Shown here in pieces: positions 4,264-26,764 of a stretch of DNA of 32,446 nt (the stretch's first letter is position 1; every line of letters starts with the position of its first letter). The translations under genes and the position numbers were made by a program. Origin of the DNA: Bacteroidota bacterium (lineage in GTDB: Bacteria; Bacteroidota; Bacteroidia; Bacteroidales; VadinHA17); contig JADFUQ010000112.1 of NCBI GenBank assembly GCA_015222065.1, positions 1-32,446 on the forward strand. The letters are read 5' to 3'. The notes below the pieces were generated by a model that had not been told where the DNA came from, made no database searches, and was given only the letters and a program-made list of their open reading frames with translations.

Positions 4264-4278
4264 TTAAACTTGTTTTTT

Positions 4279-4310
4279 AACCAGTAACCAGCAACCAGCA
4301 ACCAGTAACC
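4279..4310 (-). repeat. AACCAGY heptamer array (4 units)
   Basis: Four exact 7-bp units (AACCAGT, AACCAGC, AACCAGC, AACCAGT) plus a partial fifth lie between ftsZ and the CGGC-domain gene. On the minus strand they read RCTGGTT, the same word as the seven-unit array at 22883-22930 on the plus strand. Confidence 0.8.
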
Positions 4311-4375
4311 AAAAACTCAGGTTAATTATTATGTTTTTCTACGTTTTCTCCTTTTATAGTTTTCTTCTAAGTTCT

Positions 4376-20512: not shown

Positions 20513-21361
20513 ATGAAAAATGAAGAAAAACGAACTGAGGCGTTTTATATTGATATTGAGAAGGTAATTTCAGATAAAAATCCACGGTTACTTAAATTGT
20601 TACCTGCATTTCTGATCCGGTATCTGAAAAAGATCATCCATCAGGATGAGCTTAATGAATTCCTTAAATTATATGGAGATTTGCCGGGTCTTGATTTTAT
20701 CCATGAGGGTTTAAAATACATGGAAACAAAATATAAAGTGAAAGGATTGGAAAATTTACCTAAGGAAGGACGGTATTTATTTGCATCGAATCATCCATTG
20801 GGGGGACTTGACGGGTTAGTTTTCATCCACGAAGTAGGCAAAATCTGGCCCCGGCTAAAATTTCCCGTCAATGATCTTTTAATGAATATAAAGAATCTTG
20901 ATCCCATTTTCCTTCCTATAAATAAACATGGAAAACAGGATAAGCAAGCTGTTATACAAATTGAAAAATCATACGCTTCAGATGATCAAATCCTCTATTT
21001 CCCTGCAGGTTTATGTTCCAGAAAAAAGAAAGGGAAAATTGAAGACCTTGAATGGAAAAAGCATTTTATTACCAAAGCCGTAAAACATAAGAGGGATATT
21101 GTCCCCGTGCATTTCACAGGCCGCAATTCCAATTTCTTTTATAATCTTGCCAACCTTAGGGTTTTGCTGGGAATAAAAGCCAATATTGAAATGATTTACC
21201 TGGCTGATGAAATGTTTAAACAAAAAAATAAGAAAATCACTGTCAGGTTTGGGGAACCAATATCATACAGAATGTTTGACAAAACATTATCCCCTCAAGC
21301 ATGGGCGGTTAAGGTAAAAAAGATCGTGTATTCTCTTGGTGAAGGAAATGACACATTCTAA
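20513..21361 (+). CDS. glsA: Lysophospholipid-acyltransferase-like protein, probable GlsA
   Basis: This 282-residue membrane-associated acyltransferase belongs to the PlsC/LPLAT superfamily. The catalytic histidine motif is NHPLGGLDG, with His94 and Asp100. It has five residues between His and Asp rather than the four of the classic HX4D box, as in relatives that carry NHPxGGxDG. A second acyl-acceptor motif YFPAG occurs at residues 162-166, followed by a basic patch (SRKKKGK). In Bacteroides, GlsA O-acylates N-acyl glycine made by GlsB to form glycine lipids. A GlsB-like gene follows downstream on the same strand, which supports the assignment. Without that context it could only be called a generic 1-acylglycerol-3-phosphate-type acyltransferase. 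Confidence 0.8.
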   Translation: MKNEEKRTEAFYIDIEKVISDKNPRLLKLLPAFLIRYLKKIIHQDELNEFLKLYGDLPGLDFIHEGLKYMETKYKVKGLENLPKEGRYLFASNHPLGGLDGLVFIHEVGKIWPRLKFPVNDLLMNIKNLDPIFLPINKHGKQDKQAVIQIEKSYASDDQILYFPAGLCSRKKKGKIEDLEWKKHFITKAVKHKRDIVPVHFTGRNSNFFYNLANLRVLLGIKANIEMIYLADEMFKQKNKKITVRFGEPISYRMFDKTLSPQAWAVKVKKIVYSLGEGNDTF

Positions 21362-21393: not shown

Positions 21394-21415
21394 GCTTTTA
21401 GCTATTAGCTGTTAG
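21394..21415 (+). repeat. GCTNTTA heptamer array (3 units)
   Basis: GCTTTTA, GCTATTA and GCTGTTA stand in exact 7-bp register, 33 bp downstream of the glsA stop codon. The same word family occurs at 26298-26330 (same strand) and, inverted, at 26730-26764. Confidence 0.7.
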
Positions 21416-21460
21416 CAAGTTAACACGCTTTTTCATTAATCCAATCTTCTCCTGTAAAAT

Positions 21461-21486
21461 AATGACTTCGTCATTTCGCCTGCGAA
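21461..21486. repeat. Twin hairpins
   Basis: AATGAC-TTC-GTCATT (21461-21475) is followed at once by TTCGC-CT-GCGAA (21475-21486). Flanking ATAAT and ATTAT can close an outer stem around both, giving a small three-way structure. There is no T-tract, so an intrinsic terminator is unlikely. Confidence 0.5.
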
Positions 21487-21599
21487 TTATACTGGGCTTA
21501 CACGAAGCTTGTTTTAGTTAAGTTGTTAAATGGTTGAATGCCTCTTCACACTGCAACATTGCATCACCGCAACACTACATCACAATTTTTTTTTCTGCT

Positions 21600-21855
21600 A
21601 TTCCATCTTTCCACTATTCCATTATTCCACTATTCCATCTTTCCATTATTCCAACATTCCATTATTCCAACATTCCATTCTTCCATCTTTCCACTATTCC
21701 ATCTTTCCATTATTCCAACATTCCATTCTTCCATCTTTCCATCTTTCCACTATTCCATTATTCCACTATTCCACTATTCCATTATTCCACTATTCCATTA
21801 TTCCATTCTTCCATCTTTCCACTATTCCATCATTCCATCTTTCCACTATTCCAAA
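21600..21855 (+). repeat. Degenerate octamer array, 32 units of HTTCCAHY
   Basis: The block divides into 32 consecutive 8-bp units, for example ATTCCATC, TTTCCACT, ATTCCATT and ATTCCAAC, with no insertion or deletion across 256 bp. TTCCA is nearly invariant. Variation is confined to the first base and the last two bases (the final unit ends AA). Neighbouring units are not independent: units ending ACT are always followed by one starting with A, and units ending ATC are nearly always followed by one starting with T. No spacers are present, so it is not a CRISPR. Confidence 0.92.
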
Positions 21856-21929
21856 ATAACCAACTCAGCCTTACTTATTCTACATTTTATCTGTATCTTT
21901 ACTTTCCAATAAAATAATTGATTATTTCA

Positions 21930-22877
21930 ATGGAAGCTATTACTCGATCCGTACCACGGGAAAAACTAATAAAAGAGCTTACCTCTGAACGGTTTATCCG
22001 TAAAACCAATTACGGTGACAATGAAGTTTATATTTTCACACATCATGACTCACCAATGCTTATGCAGGAGGTTGGCAGGTTAAGGGAAATGGCTTTCAGA
22101 CTTGCGGGAGGAGGTACAGGGGAAAAAATTGATATTGATGAAATGGACACCCGGGAAGATCCATATCAGCAATTAATTGTCTGGAATCCGGAAGATCAGG
22201 AGATATTAGGGGGTTATCGTTTTTATAAATGCATAGATGCGAAAAAGAATGATTTTGATATTGATAAATTATCAACATCTCATTATTTCAATTTCTCTGA
22301 AAAATTCATTAAAGAGTATCTTCCTCACATGATTGAACTGGGTCGTTCCTTTGTGCAACCTTTTTCTACTTCCGGTAAAAGAAGAAAAAGCTTATTTGCT
22401 CTTGACAATCTCTGGGATGGTTTAGGAGCACTTGTAATTGACAACCCCGGAATGCGTTATTTCTTCGGAAAAGTAACCATGTATCCGCATTTCGACAGGT
22501 TTGCAAGGGATATGATCTTGTATTTCCTCTACAAATACTTTGGAGATCCTGAAAAACTGGCAACTCCTATAGATCCTATGCCTCTTGACCTGGAAAGAGA
22601 GGAGATCACTTCTATATTGACCGGCAAAGATTATATCGAAGATTACAAGTTACTTTCCCAACATGTTCGAAAATTGGGTGAAAATGTCCCGCCTTTAATT
22701 AACTCTTATATGAACCTATCTCCAACAATGAAGACCTTTGGTACTATTATCAATAATGATTTTGGCAATGTAGAGGAAACCGGGATAATGATCACGCTCA
22801 AAGACATGTATATCTCGAAAGTGAACAGGCATCTGGCTTCTTACCGGGAAGATTACCAGTTACCTTCGCATGAATAA
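21930..22877 (+). CDS. glsB: GNAT-like N-acyltransferase, probable GlsB
   Basis: This 315-residue protein is related to the OlsB/hemolysin-like acyltransferases (acetyltransferase_5 family). Family features seen are the region REMAFRLAGGGTGEKIDID, the core beta strand QLIVWNPEDQEILGGYRFYK and the ELGRSFVQP motif. In Bacteroides, GlsB N-acylates glycine with a 3-hydroxy fatty acid, and GlsA then O-acylates the product. The adjacent GlsA-like gene supports this role. I take the ATG at 21930. A TTG 12 nt upstream would add four residues. The reading frame starts 75 bp after the octamer array. The ortholog assignment is inferred from family and context. Confidence 0.82.
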   Translation: MEAITRSVPREKLIKELTSERFIRKTNYGDNEVYIFTHHDSPMLMQEVGRLREMAFRLAGGGTGEKIDIDEMDTREDPYQQLIVWNPEDQEILGGYRFYKCIDAKKNDFDIDKLSTSHYFNFSEKFIKEYLPHMIELGRSFVQPFSTSGKRRKSLFALDNLWDGLGALVIDNPGMRYFFGKVTMYPHFDRFARDMILYFLYKYFGDPEKLATPIDPMPLDLEREEITSILTGKDYIEDYKLLSQHVRKLGENVPPLINSYMNLSPTMKTFGTIINNDFGNVEETGIMITLKDMYISKVNRHLASYREDYQLPSHE

Positions 22878-22882
22878 CACCT

Positions 22883-22930
22883 ACTGGTTGCTGGTTGCTG
22901 GTTACTGGTTACTGGTTACTGGTTACTGGT
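22883..22930 (+). repeat. RCTGGTT heptamer array (7 units)
   Basis: ACTGGTT, GCTGGTT, GCTGGTT, then four ACTGGTT units (the last truncated by one base) lie in exact register, starting 5 bp after the glsB stop codon. It is the reverse complement of the AACCAGY array at 4279-4310. Confidence 0.88.
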
Positions 22931-22935
22931 CTGAC

Positions 22936-23054
22936 CTTGAACTTTGAACCTTGAACTCTTTTCTTCTCTCATCTCTCATCTCTCATCTCTTTCTTCCTCT
23001 TCCTACTCAACTTACTCAACTACTCAAACATTCTTCAAACCTCAAACCTCAAAC
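22936..23054 (+). repeat. Serial heptamer mini-arrays
   Basis: Three further 7-bp words follow each other: YTTGAAC x3 at 22936-22956, CTCTCAT x3 at 22966-22986 and YTCAAAC x3 at 23034-23054. Less regular ACTCAA words occur between the last two. Each array keeps exact 7-bp phase, and most tolerate only a purine or pyrimidine transition at one position. Confidence 0.8.
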
Positions 23055-25257: not shown

Positions 25258-26298
25258 ATGAAAAATATAATTAAAACTCTTTCTGCAATAATATTTATCG
25301 CATTGATTTTTAATGCTTGTAAAGAGCAAGTTGAAGAAGAAAAAATCGCGGAAAAAATAAAAGTAAGAACAACAAAGGTTATTGAAAAAGAAATGTCGAT
25401 ACCTGTTCATTGCAGCGGTAAATTATCTTCAAAAACCGAATCGAAATTAAGTTTTAAAACCGGTGGAATTATCAGCAGCATATTTGTTGATGAAGGTCAA
25501 AAAGTGAAAAAAGGACAAGTTTTGGCAAAGCTTAATCTTTCTGAAATTCAGCCACAGGTAAATCAGGCAAGACTTGGTTTGGATAAAGCCGAACGGGATT
25601 TCAGGAGGGCTAATAATTTGTATAAGGACAGTGTTGCTACTCTTGAGCAACTGCAAAATGTTACAACTGCTCTAAATATTGCAAAATCAAATGTGGAAAT
25701 AGCCGAATTTAATCTGCAATACTCAACAATCAAAGCCCCGTCAAACGGTAAAATTTTAAAACGTATTGCCGAAGAAAACGAAATCGTCGGACCCGGCAAC
25801 CCTGTGTTTTTGTTTGGTTCTACTGATAATGACTGGATTGCCAGAGTGAATATTACTGATAAGGATATTTTTTCGCTCCAACTTAATGACAAGGCAGAAA
25901 TACAATTTGATGCTTATCCCGATAAAACTTTCACGGCAATTGTTACCGTAATTGGAAACTTAGCCGACCCATATACAGGAACCTACGAAGTTGAACTTAC
26001 GCTAAAACAAACAGATGCAAAATTTGCTTCAGGATTAATTGCAAGTGTGGATATTTATCCTTCAAAAAAAGAAATATTTAAAATCATTTCTGTTAATGCT
26101 CTTATAGAAGGCAATGAAACGGAAGGTTATATATATCAGGTTATTAATAAAAGCAAGGTTAAAAAGTTAAGAATTAAAATTCACAAGATCTCTGATAACG
26201 ATTTATTTATTAAATCAGGCGTAGAAACCGGAGCCGAGATAATCACCGAAGGAGTGAGTTATGTTAATGGAACGTCTGAAGTTAAAGTAATAAAATAG
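25258..26298 (+). CDS. RND efflux periplasmic adaptor (membrane fusion protein), lipoprotein
   Basis: This 346-residue adaptor joins the inner-membrane RND pump to the TolC channel. The N-terminus has a lipoprotein signal with lipobox FNAC, so Cys21 is probably lipidated. Domain order is typical of the HlyD/AcrA family: first half of the lipoyl domain (GGIISSIFVDEGQKVKKGQVLAKL), an alpha-helical hairpin (ALNIAKSNVEIAEFNLQYS), second lipoyl half (IKAPSNGKILKRIAEENEIV), beta-barrel and membrane-proximal domain. The TAG stop codon runs straight into a GCTKTTR heptamer array. The pump gene does not follow directly: a four-helix-bundle gene lies between. Confidence 0.95.
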   Translation: MKNIIKTLSAIIFIALIFNACKEQVEEEKIAEKIKVRTTKVIEKEMSIPVHCSGKLSSKTESKLSFKTGGIISSIFVDEGQKVKKGQVLAKLNLSEIQPQVNQARLGLDKAERDFRRANNLYKDSVATLEQLQNVTTALNIAKSNVEIAEFNLQYSTIKAPSNGKILKRIAEENEIVGPGNPVFLFGSTDNDWIARVNITDKDIFSLQLNDKAEIQFDAYPDKTFTAIVTVIGNLADPYTGTYEVELTLKQTDAKFASGLIASVDIYPSKKEIFKIISVNALIEGNETEGYIYQVINKSKVKKLRIKIHKISDNDLFIKSGVETGAEIITEGVSYVNGTSEVKVIK

Positions 26299-26330
26299 CT
26301 TTTAGCTGTTGGCTGTTAGCTTTTAGCTTT
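26298..26330 (+). repeat. GCTKTTR heptamer array, left flank of the four-helix gene
   Basis: GCTTTTA, GCTGTTG, GCTGTTA, GCTTTTA and a partial GCTTT are in exact 7-bp register. The first base is the last base of the adaptor gene's TAG stop codon. A matching array in inverted orientation lies at 26730-26764, on the other side of the four-helix gene. Confidence 0.85.
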
Positions 26331-26379
26331 ACTATCATAAATTAATGCTTTATCTATTAAAACCTTTAAAAAATAAATT

Positions 26380-26739
26380 ATGAAAAATTTTAGAAAATTA
26401 ATCATTTGGCAAAAAGGAATTGATTTGGTAATTGACATTTATAAGTTCTCAAATGATTTGCCATCAGATGAAAAATATGGTTTAATAAGTCAAATACGAC
26501 GAGCATCAGTATCAATTCCTTCAAATATTGCCGAAGGTTCTTCGAGGTATAGTGAAAAAGATTTTAAACGTTTTCTTGAAATTGCTATAGGTTCAGCTTT
26601 TGAGTTAGAAACTCAATTACTAATAATCCAAAAGTTATGTTTAATTGACAAAAGCAAGTGTGATATACTTATCCAGTCGTTACAAGAAGAACAAAAAATG
26701 ATCAATAGTTTGATTACTAAAATTAAAACCAACAGCTAA
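26380..26739 (+). CDS. Four-helix bundle protein (23S rRNA intervening-sequence protein family)
   Basis: This 119-residue cytoplasmic protein is of the S23/IVP family. Hallmarks are the opening FRKLIIWQKGIDLVIDIY, the segment GLISQIRRASVSIPSNIAEGSSR and DFKRFLEIAIGSAFELETQL. Members were first found as ORFs in intervening sequences of 23S rRNA genes, but they are widespread as free-standing genes. Their function is unknown, though nucleic-acid binding has been proposed and they form pentamers or other ring-like oligomers. Here it interrupts the adaptor-pump pair, and its last codons (ACC AAC AGC TAA) run into the right heptamer array. The oppositely oriented word arrays on both sides make it look like an inserted cassette. 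Confidence 0.93.
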   Translation: MKNFRKLIIWQKGIDLVIDIYKFSNDLPSDEKYGLISQIRRASVSIPSNIAEGSSRYSEKDFKRFLEIAIGSAFELETQLLIIQKLCLIDKSKCDILIQSLQEEQKMINSLITKIKTNS

Positions 26740-26764
26740 CAGCTAATAACTAACAGCTAATAAA
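26730..26764 (-). repeat. Inverted GCTGTTA heptamer array, right flank of the four-helix gene
   Basis: CAACAGC, TAACAGC, TAATAAC, TAACAGC and TAATAAA are five exact heptamers, the reverse complement of the left-flank family. The array contains the stop codon of the four-helix gene and ends exactly one base before the ATG of the RND pump, so it takes the place of any normal leader. Confidence 0.85.

Follow-up and report, generated by a model that had tools for sequence, protein, structure and literature searches.

The window, by which we mean the whole 32,446-nucleotide stretch of Bacteroidota DNA analysed here, carries a long octamer array between two lipid-synthesis genes, and the assignment of these genes to a glsA-glsB pair in a first-pass annotation agrees with their Pfam matches (Acyltransf_2 and Acetyltransf_5). 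The features of this locus are:

20513 to 21361, + strand: glsA-like acyltransferase gene (PF19576), the host gene upstream of the array, from Pfam (Acetyltransf_5 / Acyltransf_2 pair)
21395 to 21416, + strand: remnant of a second, heptamer array [NNTTAGC]n, as in the arms of the window's IVP gene
21542 to 21557, + strand: interior motif CTCTTCACACTGCAAC, common to the inserted copies L154 and L141 and to L167, the G005 locus
21601 to 21853, + strand: octamer array, 32 x TTCCA with a variable triplet NYH, read below as the overgrown TTCCA (3') arm of an element
21854 to 21883, + strand: putative decayed right end, AAAATAAC then 23 bp, from comparison with G005 and other copies
21930 to 22877, + strand: glsB-like N-acyltransferase gene (PF13444), the host gene downstream of the array, from Pfam

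All 31 spacings between successive TTCCA cores from 21601 to 21853 measure exactly 8 bp, with one contiguous variable triplet between cores, which bears out the perfect 8-bp phase described at first pass. The triplets are CTA (9), TCT (8), TTA (7), ACA (3), TTC (3), TCA (1) and AAA (1, at the array end). With units cut as HTTCCAHY, the first-pass annotation had proposed a neighbour grammar in which the start of each unit depends on the end of the one before; its counts hold (ACT is followed by A in 9 of 9 cases, ATC by T in 8 of 9, AAC by A in 3 of 3), and in that frame the dependence exceeds that of shuffled units (mutual information 0.81 versus 0.17, p=5e-5). The apparent rule arises, however, mainly because the HTTCCAHY cut falls inside the triplet, so that a "neighbour" is one unit split in two; it amounts to a restatement of the triplet set CTA, TCT, TTA, ACA, TTC and TCA. 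When units are instead cut as TTCCA followed by NNN, the dependence of the first base of a triplet on the last base of the preceding one gives only p=0.10, and no transition rule common to the other arrays of the genome was found (MI p=0.38). We therefore reject a grammar between units as the main effect; selection on overlapping dinucleotides is likewise not supported, the effect coming mostly from the chosen unit frame. The order of whole triplets does depart from shuffling (1.09 versus 0.61 bits, p=0.0009), and repeated two- and three-unit words are in excess (p=0.004 and 0.008), a signal of the kind that block duplication gives and weaker than the framing effect. Units are more alike within one array than between arrays (0.238 versus 0.119), and of 25 long TTCCA arrays drawn from many genomes, with that of the window among the 25, 11 show unit-order dependence; order in long arrays takes the form either of single-unit runs or of strict alternation or blocks of at least three units, which is what slippage or unequal exchange by one or several units gives. 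Copying of a few unit variants, also suggested at first pass, is thus upheld by block duplication, by within-array likeness and by unit numbers that vary between congeners. These results carry the caution that the choice of unit frame alone can create "grammar" between repeat units. Open frames of 109 to 127 aa that run across the array were rejected as coding, because a stop-free period-8 repeat opens all three frames of a strand. The 32-unit size itself may have been mis-set by assembly, the genome being a 612-contig draft in which several contigs end near arrays.

The same array recurs throughout the genome from which the window comes (3.9 Mb, 612 contigs). A four-unit pattern gives 240 matches there and its reversed control none, and in the window together with 40 further stretches of this genome 270 TTCCA pairs lie 8 bp apart, against at most 11 at any other distance below 40; the sharp 8-bp peak and the empty reversed control exclude chance or composition as the origin of the arrays. 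The triplet conforms to NYH almost without exception. A device local to glsA-glsB, as had been put forward, is not supported, since the array stands in dozens of unrelated intergenic places, and it is neither unique in the genome nor invariant among relatives: across species of the genus the unit number at glsA-glsB is 32, about 7, about 2 or none. The octamer pattern occurs in all seven genomes of the genus (in one as a single match), is patchy in the rest of the family and is hardly found beyond the family in the order; among the matches listed in GTDB genomes, record titles name Bacteroidota, Calditrichia, Poribacteria, Verrucomicrobiota, Lentisphaerae, Ignavibacteria, Planctomycetes and others. 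A phage origin was rejected, with only 3 stretches in 2.9 million viral contigs. G016, which belongs to a different genus within the family, matches the reversed control pattern 61 times (ACCTT/AAGGT octamers), so that another lineage has another, independent octamer family. Five contigs of the window's own genome (G000; C14, C26, C93, C98 and C105, with loci L125, L126 and L140-L142) end within or near octamer arrays; the draft assembly therefore probably breaks there and undercounts the arrays.

Arrays on opposite strands of one gap always run [TGGAANNN]n ... [NNNTTCCA]n, that is, [TGGAA]n...[TTCCA]n, in 13 of 13 pairs from this genome and 17 of 17 foreign pairs. Copies with paired arms fold better than shuffled sequence (z -2.7 to -4.0), and complementary ends capable of forming a stem, as in known intervening sequences, are thus a property of the family, with one arm only at the window copy. 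By eye, TGA/TAA/TAG triplets abound in the TGGAA arm of two-arm copies and ATA/ACA triplets in the TTCCA arm; paired arms would therefore keep about one mismatch per octamer. Many array copies are bordered by two conserved end sequences, GGTTCATCCGGAAAATGAATAGG and GGTTCTTCAGGATAATGCATAG, which are imperfect inverted repeats of each other, and terminal repeats of the form GGTTC[AT]TC[AC]GGA[AT]AATG are found beside arrays. The two sequences occupy opposite ends and give 51 matches, some weak ones of which look like chance hits in genes, versus 3 for a reversed control. The family therefore has the terminal inverted repeats of a miniature inverted-repeat transposable element (MITE), and at the window copy these ends are decayed. 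In eight copies with both ends (seven from this genome and one in L014), the flanks agree at a length of 8 only when lengths of 4 to 12 are tried, with at least 7 of 8 bases matching in 8 of 8 copies versus 4 of 56 cross-pairs, which points to a DNA transposase as the most likely agent of their insertion. The 8-bp target-site duplication, likewise characteristic of MITEs, is thus observed in the family, and none is recognisable at the window glsA-glsB copy. ISL3 elements are known for 8-bp duplications. Because the only ISL3-family relic of the genome, at a contig end, ends in the same 10 bp, GGTTCATCCG, an ISL3-type transposase plausibly placed these copies, a tentative assignment that rests on 10 bp of one contig-end relic. 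We rejected the ISL3 transposase of relatives as the source of the ends, as one of 12 relatives (G005) has such a transposase and its intact gene lacks GGTTCATCCG-type ends.

Comparison of orthologous glsA-glsB gaps among congeners suggests that the window copy belongs to this family. In the window the gap is 556 bp long and contains 32 units. That of G001 (243 bp) has a shorter array, followed by the 3' flank seen in the window, and that of G005 (330 bp) a short relic with a recognisable right end; those of G002 (88 bp) and G006 (less than 100 bp) have no array. Directly after the window array stands ATTCCAAAATAAC, the junction seen in other copies, and this junction with its following flank is common to the G001 locus (92% over 75 bp). 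The 23-bp stretch that follows has the length of the right terminal repeat of G005 (AAAATAACTACACGTTATCCTGAAAAATTTT) and of other copies (AAAATAACTACGTATTATCCTGAAGAACC) with a diverged sequence, a relic matched more by position and length than by sequence. Upstream of the array, the stretch from 21393 (TTAGC units, then AAGTTAACACG) recurs elsewhere in the genome beside TTCCA arrays, with 89% identity over 46 bp to L140 and 89% over 44 bp to L158. The gap also contains a small palindrome, AATGACTTCGTCATT, at 21463-21477, and no IVP remnant was found in it. The ATTCCAAAATAAC junction, the badly decayed right end and the heptamer and interior motifs together suggest that the window copy is an inserted, decayed element of which one overgrown arm is left.

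A plain microsatellite, seeded by chance and extended on the spot by replication slippage without any mobile element, would account for the unit order, for the likeness of units within an array and for array lengths that vary between congeners. We nevertheless judge it unlikely as the origin of the array, because the TTCCA octamer recurs across dozens of unrelated gaps of this genome and is often paired there in inverse orientation with a constant polarity, because some copies carry terminal repeats and 8-bp duplications, and because orthologous gaps are either shorter than 100 bp without an array or a few hundred bp long with a shared flank. Slippage, disfavoured as the origin, is the likely cause of array growth after insertion.

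The window also contains a second, intact element, which carries the gene for an intervening-sequence protein (IVP):

26296 to 26330, + strand: 5' arm of the window IVP element, [NNTTAGC]n, with the stop codon of the upstream gene in its first bases
26380 to 26739, + strand: PF05635 gene of the intact IVP element (23S rRNA intervening-sequence protein, four-helix bundle; E=1.3e-38)
26729 to 26763, + strand: 3' arm of the window IVP element, inverted [GCTAANN]n, which ends at the start codon of the next gene

All five complete IVP copies examined (that of the window at 26380-26739 and L195-L198) have inverted arrays, each with its own unit, and in L198, from the same genome, this unit is TGGAA/TTCCA. 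An IVP gene likewise lies between TGGAA and TTCCA arms in L020, L064, L094 (a Chitinophagaceae copy), L265 and L267, and L014 is laid out as terminal repeat, [TGGAA]7, IVP gene, [TTCCA]2, terminal repeat. A PF05635 gene within the element, as in 23S rRNA intervening sequences, is thus observed in L198, L014, L020, L064 and L094, and is absent from the window glsA-glsB copy. The genome has 21 PF05635 matches, and IVP sequence is left in 5 of its 40 array loci. Among 65 IVP genes drawn from this genome, Bacteroidota loci and loci of other phyla, inverted 6-9-mer arrays with at least 2 units on both sides flank 35, compared with 3 of 61 control genes (p=9e-10), and in two broad samples inverted arrays occur in 50% of true flank pairs versus 7-9% of pairs in which the upstream flank of one IVP gene was combined with the downstream flank of another. 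About half of the IVP genes have no inverted array by this automatic test, and several show short ones by eye. Across 60 relatives, PF05635 is present in 20 of 20 with arrays versus 30 of 40 without (Fisher p=0.02), and array and PF05635 counts are correlated (Spearman 0.47, p=1.5e-4), both tests being weakened by shared ancestry.

The window IVP element (26296-26763) lies between HlyD-like and RND transporter genes and fills the space between the stop codon of one operon gene and the start codon of its successor. In G024 this junction lacks an IVP gene and is occupied by a different inverted remnant; more distant homologues have the two genes overlapping or almost adjacent. A search for an empty site through RND transporter orthologues found true orthologues absent from most congeners, with G024 as the sole useful comparison (92% over 59 aa, at a contig end). 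In this genome the TGGAA arm of octamer copies often begins at the stop codon of the gene before it: of 32 cases, 10 have a stop that doubles as an array triplet, and in 10 more the stop is at most 20 bp away. A 23S_rRNA_IVP gene has been reported between cmr3 and cmr2 in Pleurocapsa (PMC3936711), a placement that fits the pattern of insertion between operon genes. By eye, IVP genes of several genera (L219, L221, L223, L230 and L215, L225, L244) are closely followed by a thiolase-like gene, which suggests that this insertion place is conserved or has been used repeatedly. The window contains further 7-8-mer arrays at 4278-4311, 22882-22930, 22965-22990 and 67-103, with units TAACCAG/CTGGTTA, TACTGGT, TCTCTCA and AGATGAGA; those at 4278-4311 and 22882-22930 come shortly after a stop codon.

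Many arrays of the genome lie just downstream of a stop codon, and the window array strand has no G, is predicted on its own to be unstructured (0 kcal/mol) and presents a CC-bearing core once every 8 bases. Such G-free, C-bearing RNA could serve the host as a Rho loading site or as a platform for an RNA-binding protein, once per octamer, and so insulate glsA from glsB. As an explanation of the array we regard this as distinctly improbable, since the sense strand after stop codons is usually TGGAA, not TTCCA, and since congeners have the same gene pair without the array and the gap; a secondary use of the array is possible. A phase-variable spacer, in which changes in unit number would switch glsB expression, draws on the variation in unit number among species of the genus and is scarcely credible, because the differences are seen between species only and the array lies outside any coding frame or recognised promoter, with the nearest start codon more than 60 bp off.

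We therefore favour, with a probability of about 0.77, the reading that the window array represents a single arm, now expanded, of an inverted-repeat element of IVP type that has since decayed and that inserted between glsA and glsB in an ancestor of some members of the genus; the insertion may also affect glsB. In the family, dispersal, inverted pairing, insertion polymorphism, terminal repeats with 8-bp duplications and an IVP gene between the arms are all observed. Its members share the anatomy [TGGAANNN]n, interior, [NNNTTCCA]n, with the interior of complete copies formed by the gene for the PF05635 four-helix-bundle protein and this gene deleted in most copies of the genome; some copies are bounded by imperfect terminal inverted repeats and most likely owe their position to a DNA transposase with 8-bp target duplications. 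The arm of the window copy probably grew to 32 units once inserted, through slippage or through unequal exchange in steps of one or more units, and such lengthening would leave a small set of variants and a weak unit-order signal. In transcripts of complete copies, pairing of the arms is predicted to form a long hairpin whose loop contains the IVP gene and which RNase III could cut by analogy with the IVP-bearing intervening sequences of 23S rRNA, whose complementary ends are known and whose excision is by RNase III (PMC4990558). Under the best-supported model, processing of its RNA would make a hairpin element tolerable between operon genes. A resemblance of PF05635 to Avd, an accessory protein of diversity-generating retroelements, has also been reported (PMC10053308), and an RNA-based route of mobility may thus be open.

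Beyond this locus, we put forward at even odds the proposal that PF05635 (S23/IVP) genes of many phyla are the cargo of widespread selfish intergenic elements that have degenerate 7- or 8-base units in inverted arrays as their ends and settle exactly from stop to start between operon genes, and whose decay accounts for many of the so far unexplained short tandem arrays in bacterial genomes, that of the window included. Foldback transposons of eukaryotes have long inverted ends of short tandem repeats, a layout in which they resemble the array elements. The intervening sequences of 23S rRNA, for example in Coxiella burnetii and Leptospira, share the PF05635 family and a sporadic distribution but lie in rRNA, whereas the copies described here lie between protein genes, have tandem 7-8-mer arrays as stem arms and have RNase III excision only as a candidate process (PMC4990558). 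BrickBuilt, a MITE with a minisatellite in Porphyromonas gingivalis, is likewise an intergenic element of Bacteroidota with inverted-repeat ends and internal tandem repeats of variable copy number, but its repeats are 23 bp long and form one head-to-tail array, and the accessible part of the report describes neither inverted octamer arms nor an IVP gene (PMC4596501). The TAACTGA heptamer direct repeats of Beggiatoaceae, Cyanobacteria and Bacteroidetes are also short, intergenic, tandem and patchy across phyla, with indels in unit steps, but they consist of one fixed heptamer that in the Beggiatoaceae genome stands mostly just upstream of start codons, and the portions of that study available to us report neither inverted pairing nor an IVP gene (PMC4679880). 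Already known, then, are S23/IVP genes in intervening sequences, minisatellites inside MITEs and heptamer arrays between genes; a search of the open-access literature turned up no account of IVP elements whose ends are inverted 7-8-mer arrays, and within that literature the IVP-array association appears undescribed.

Our findings link two orphan observations, the scattered short degenerate tandem arrays and the abundant S23/IVP proteins, four-helix bundles for which the Coxiella study gives no known function (PMC4990558). Should the arrays prove to be the ends of such elements, direct tests would become possible of where the arrays come from, what the IVP proteins do and how insertion affects operon mRNA.
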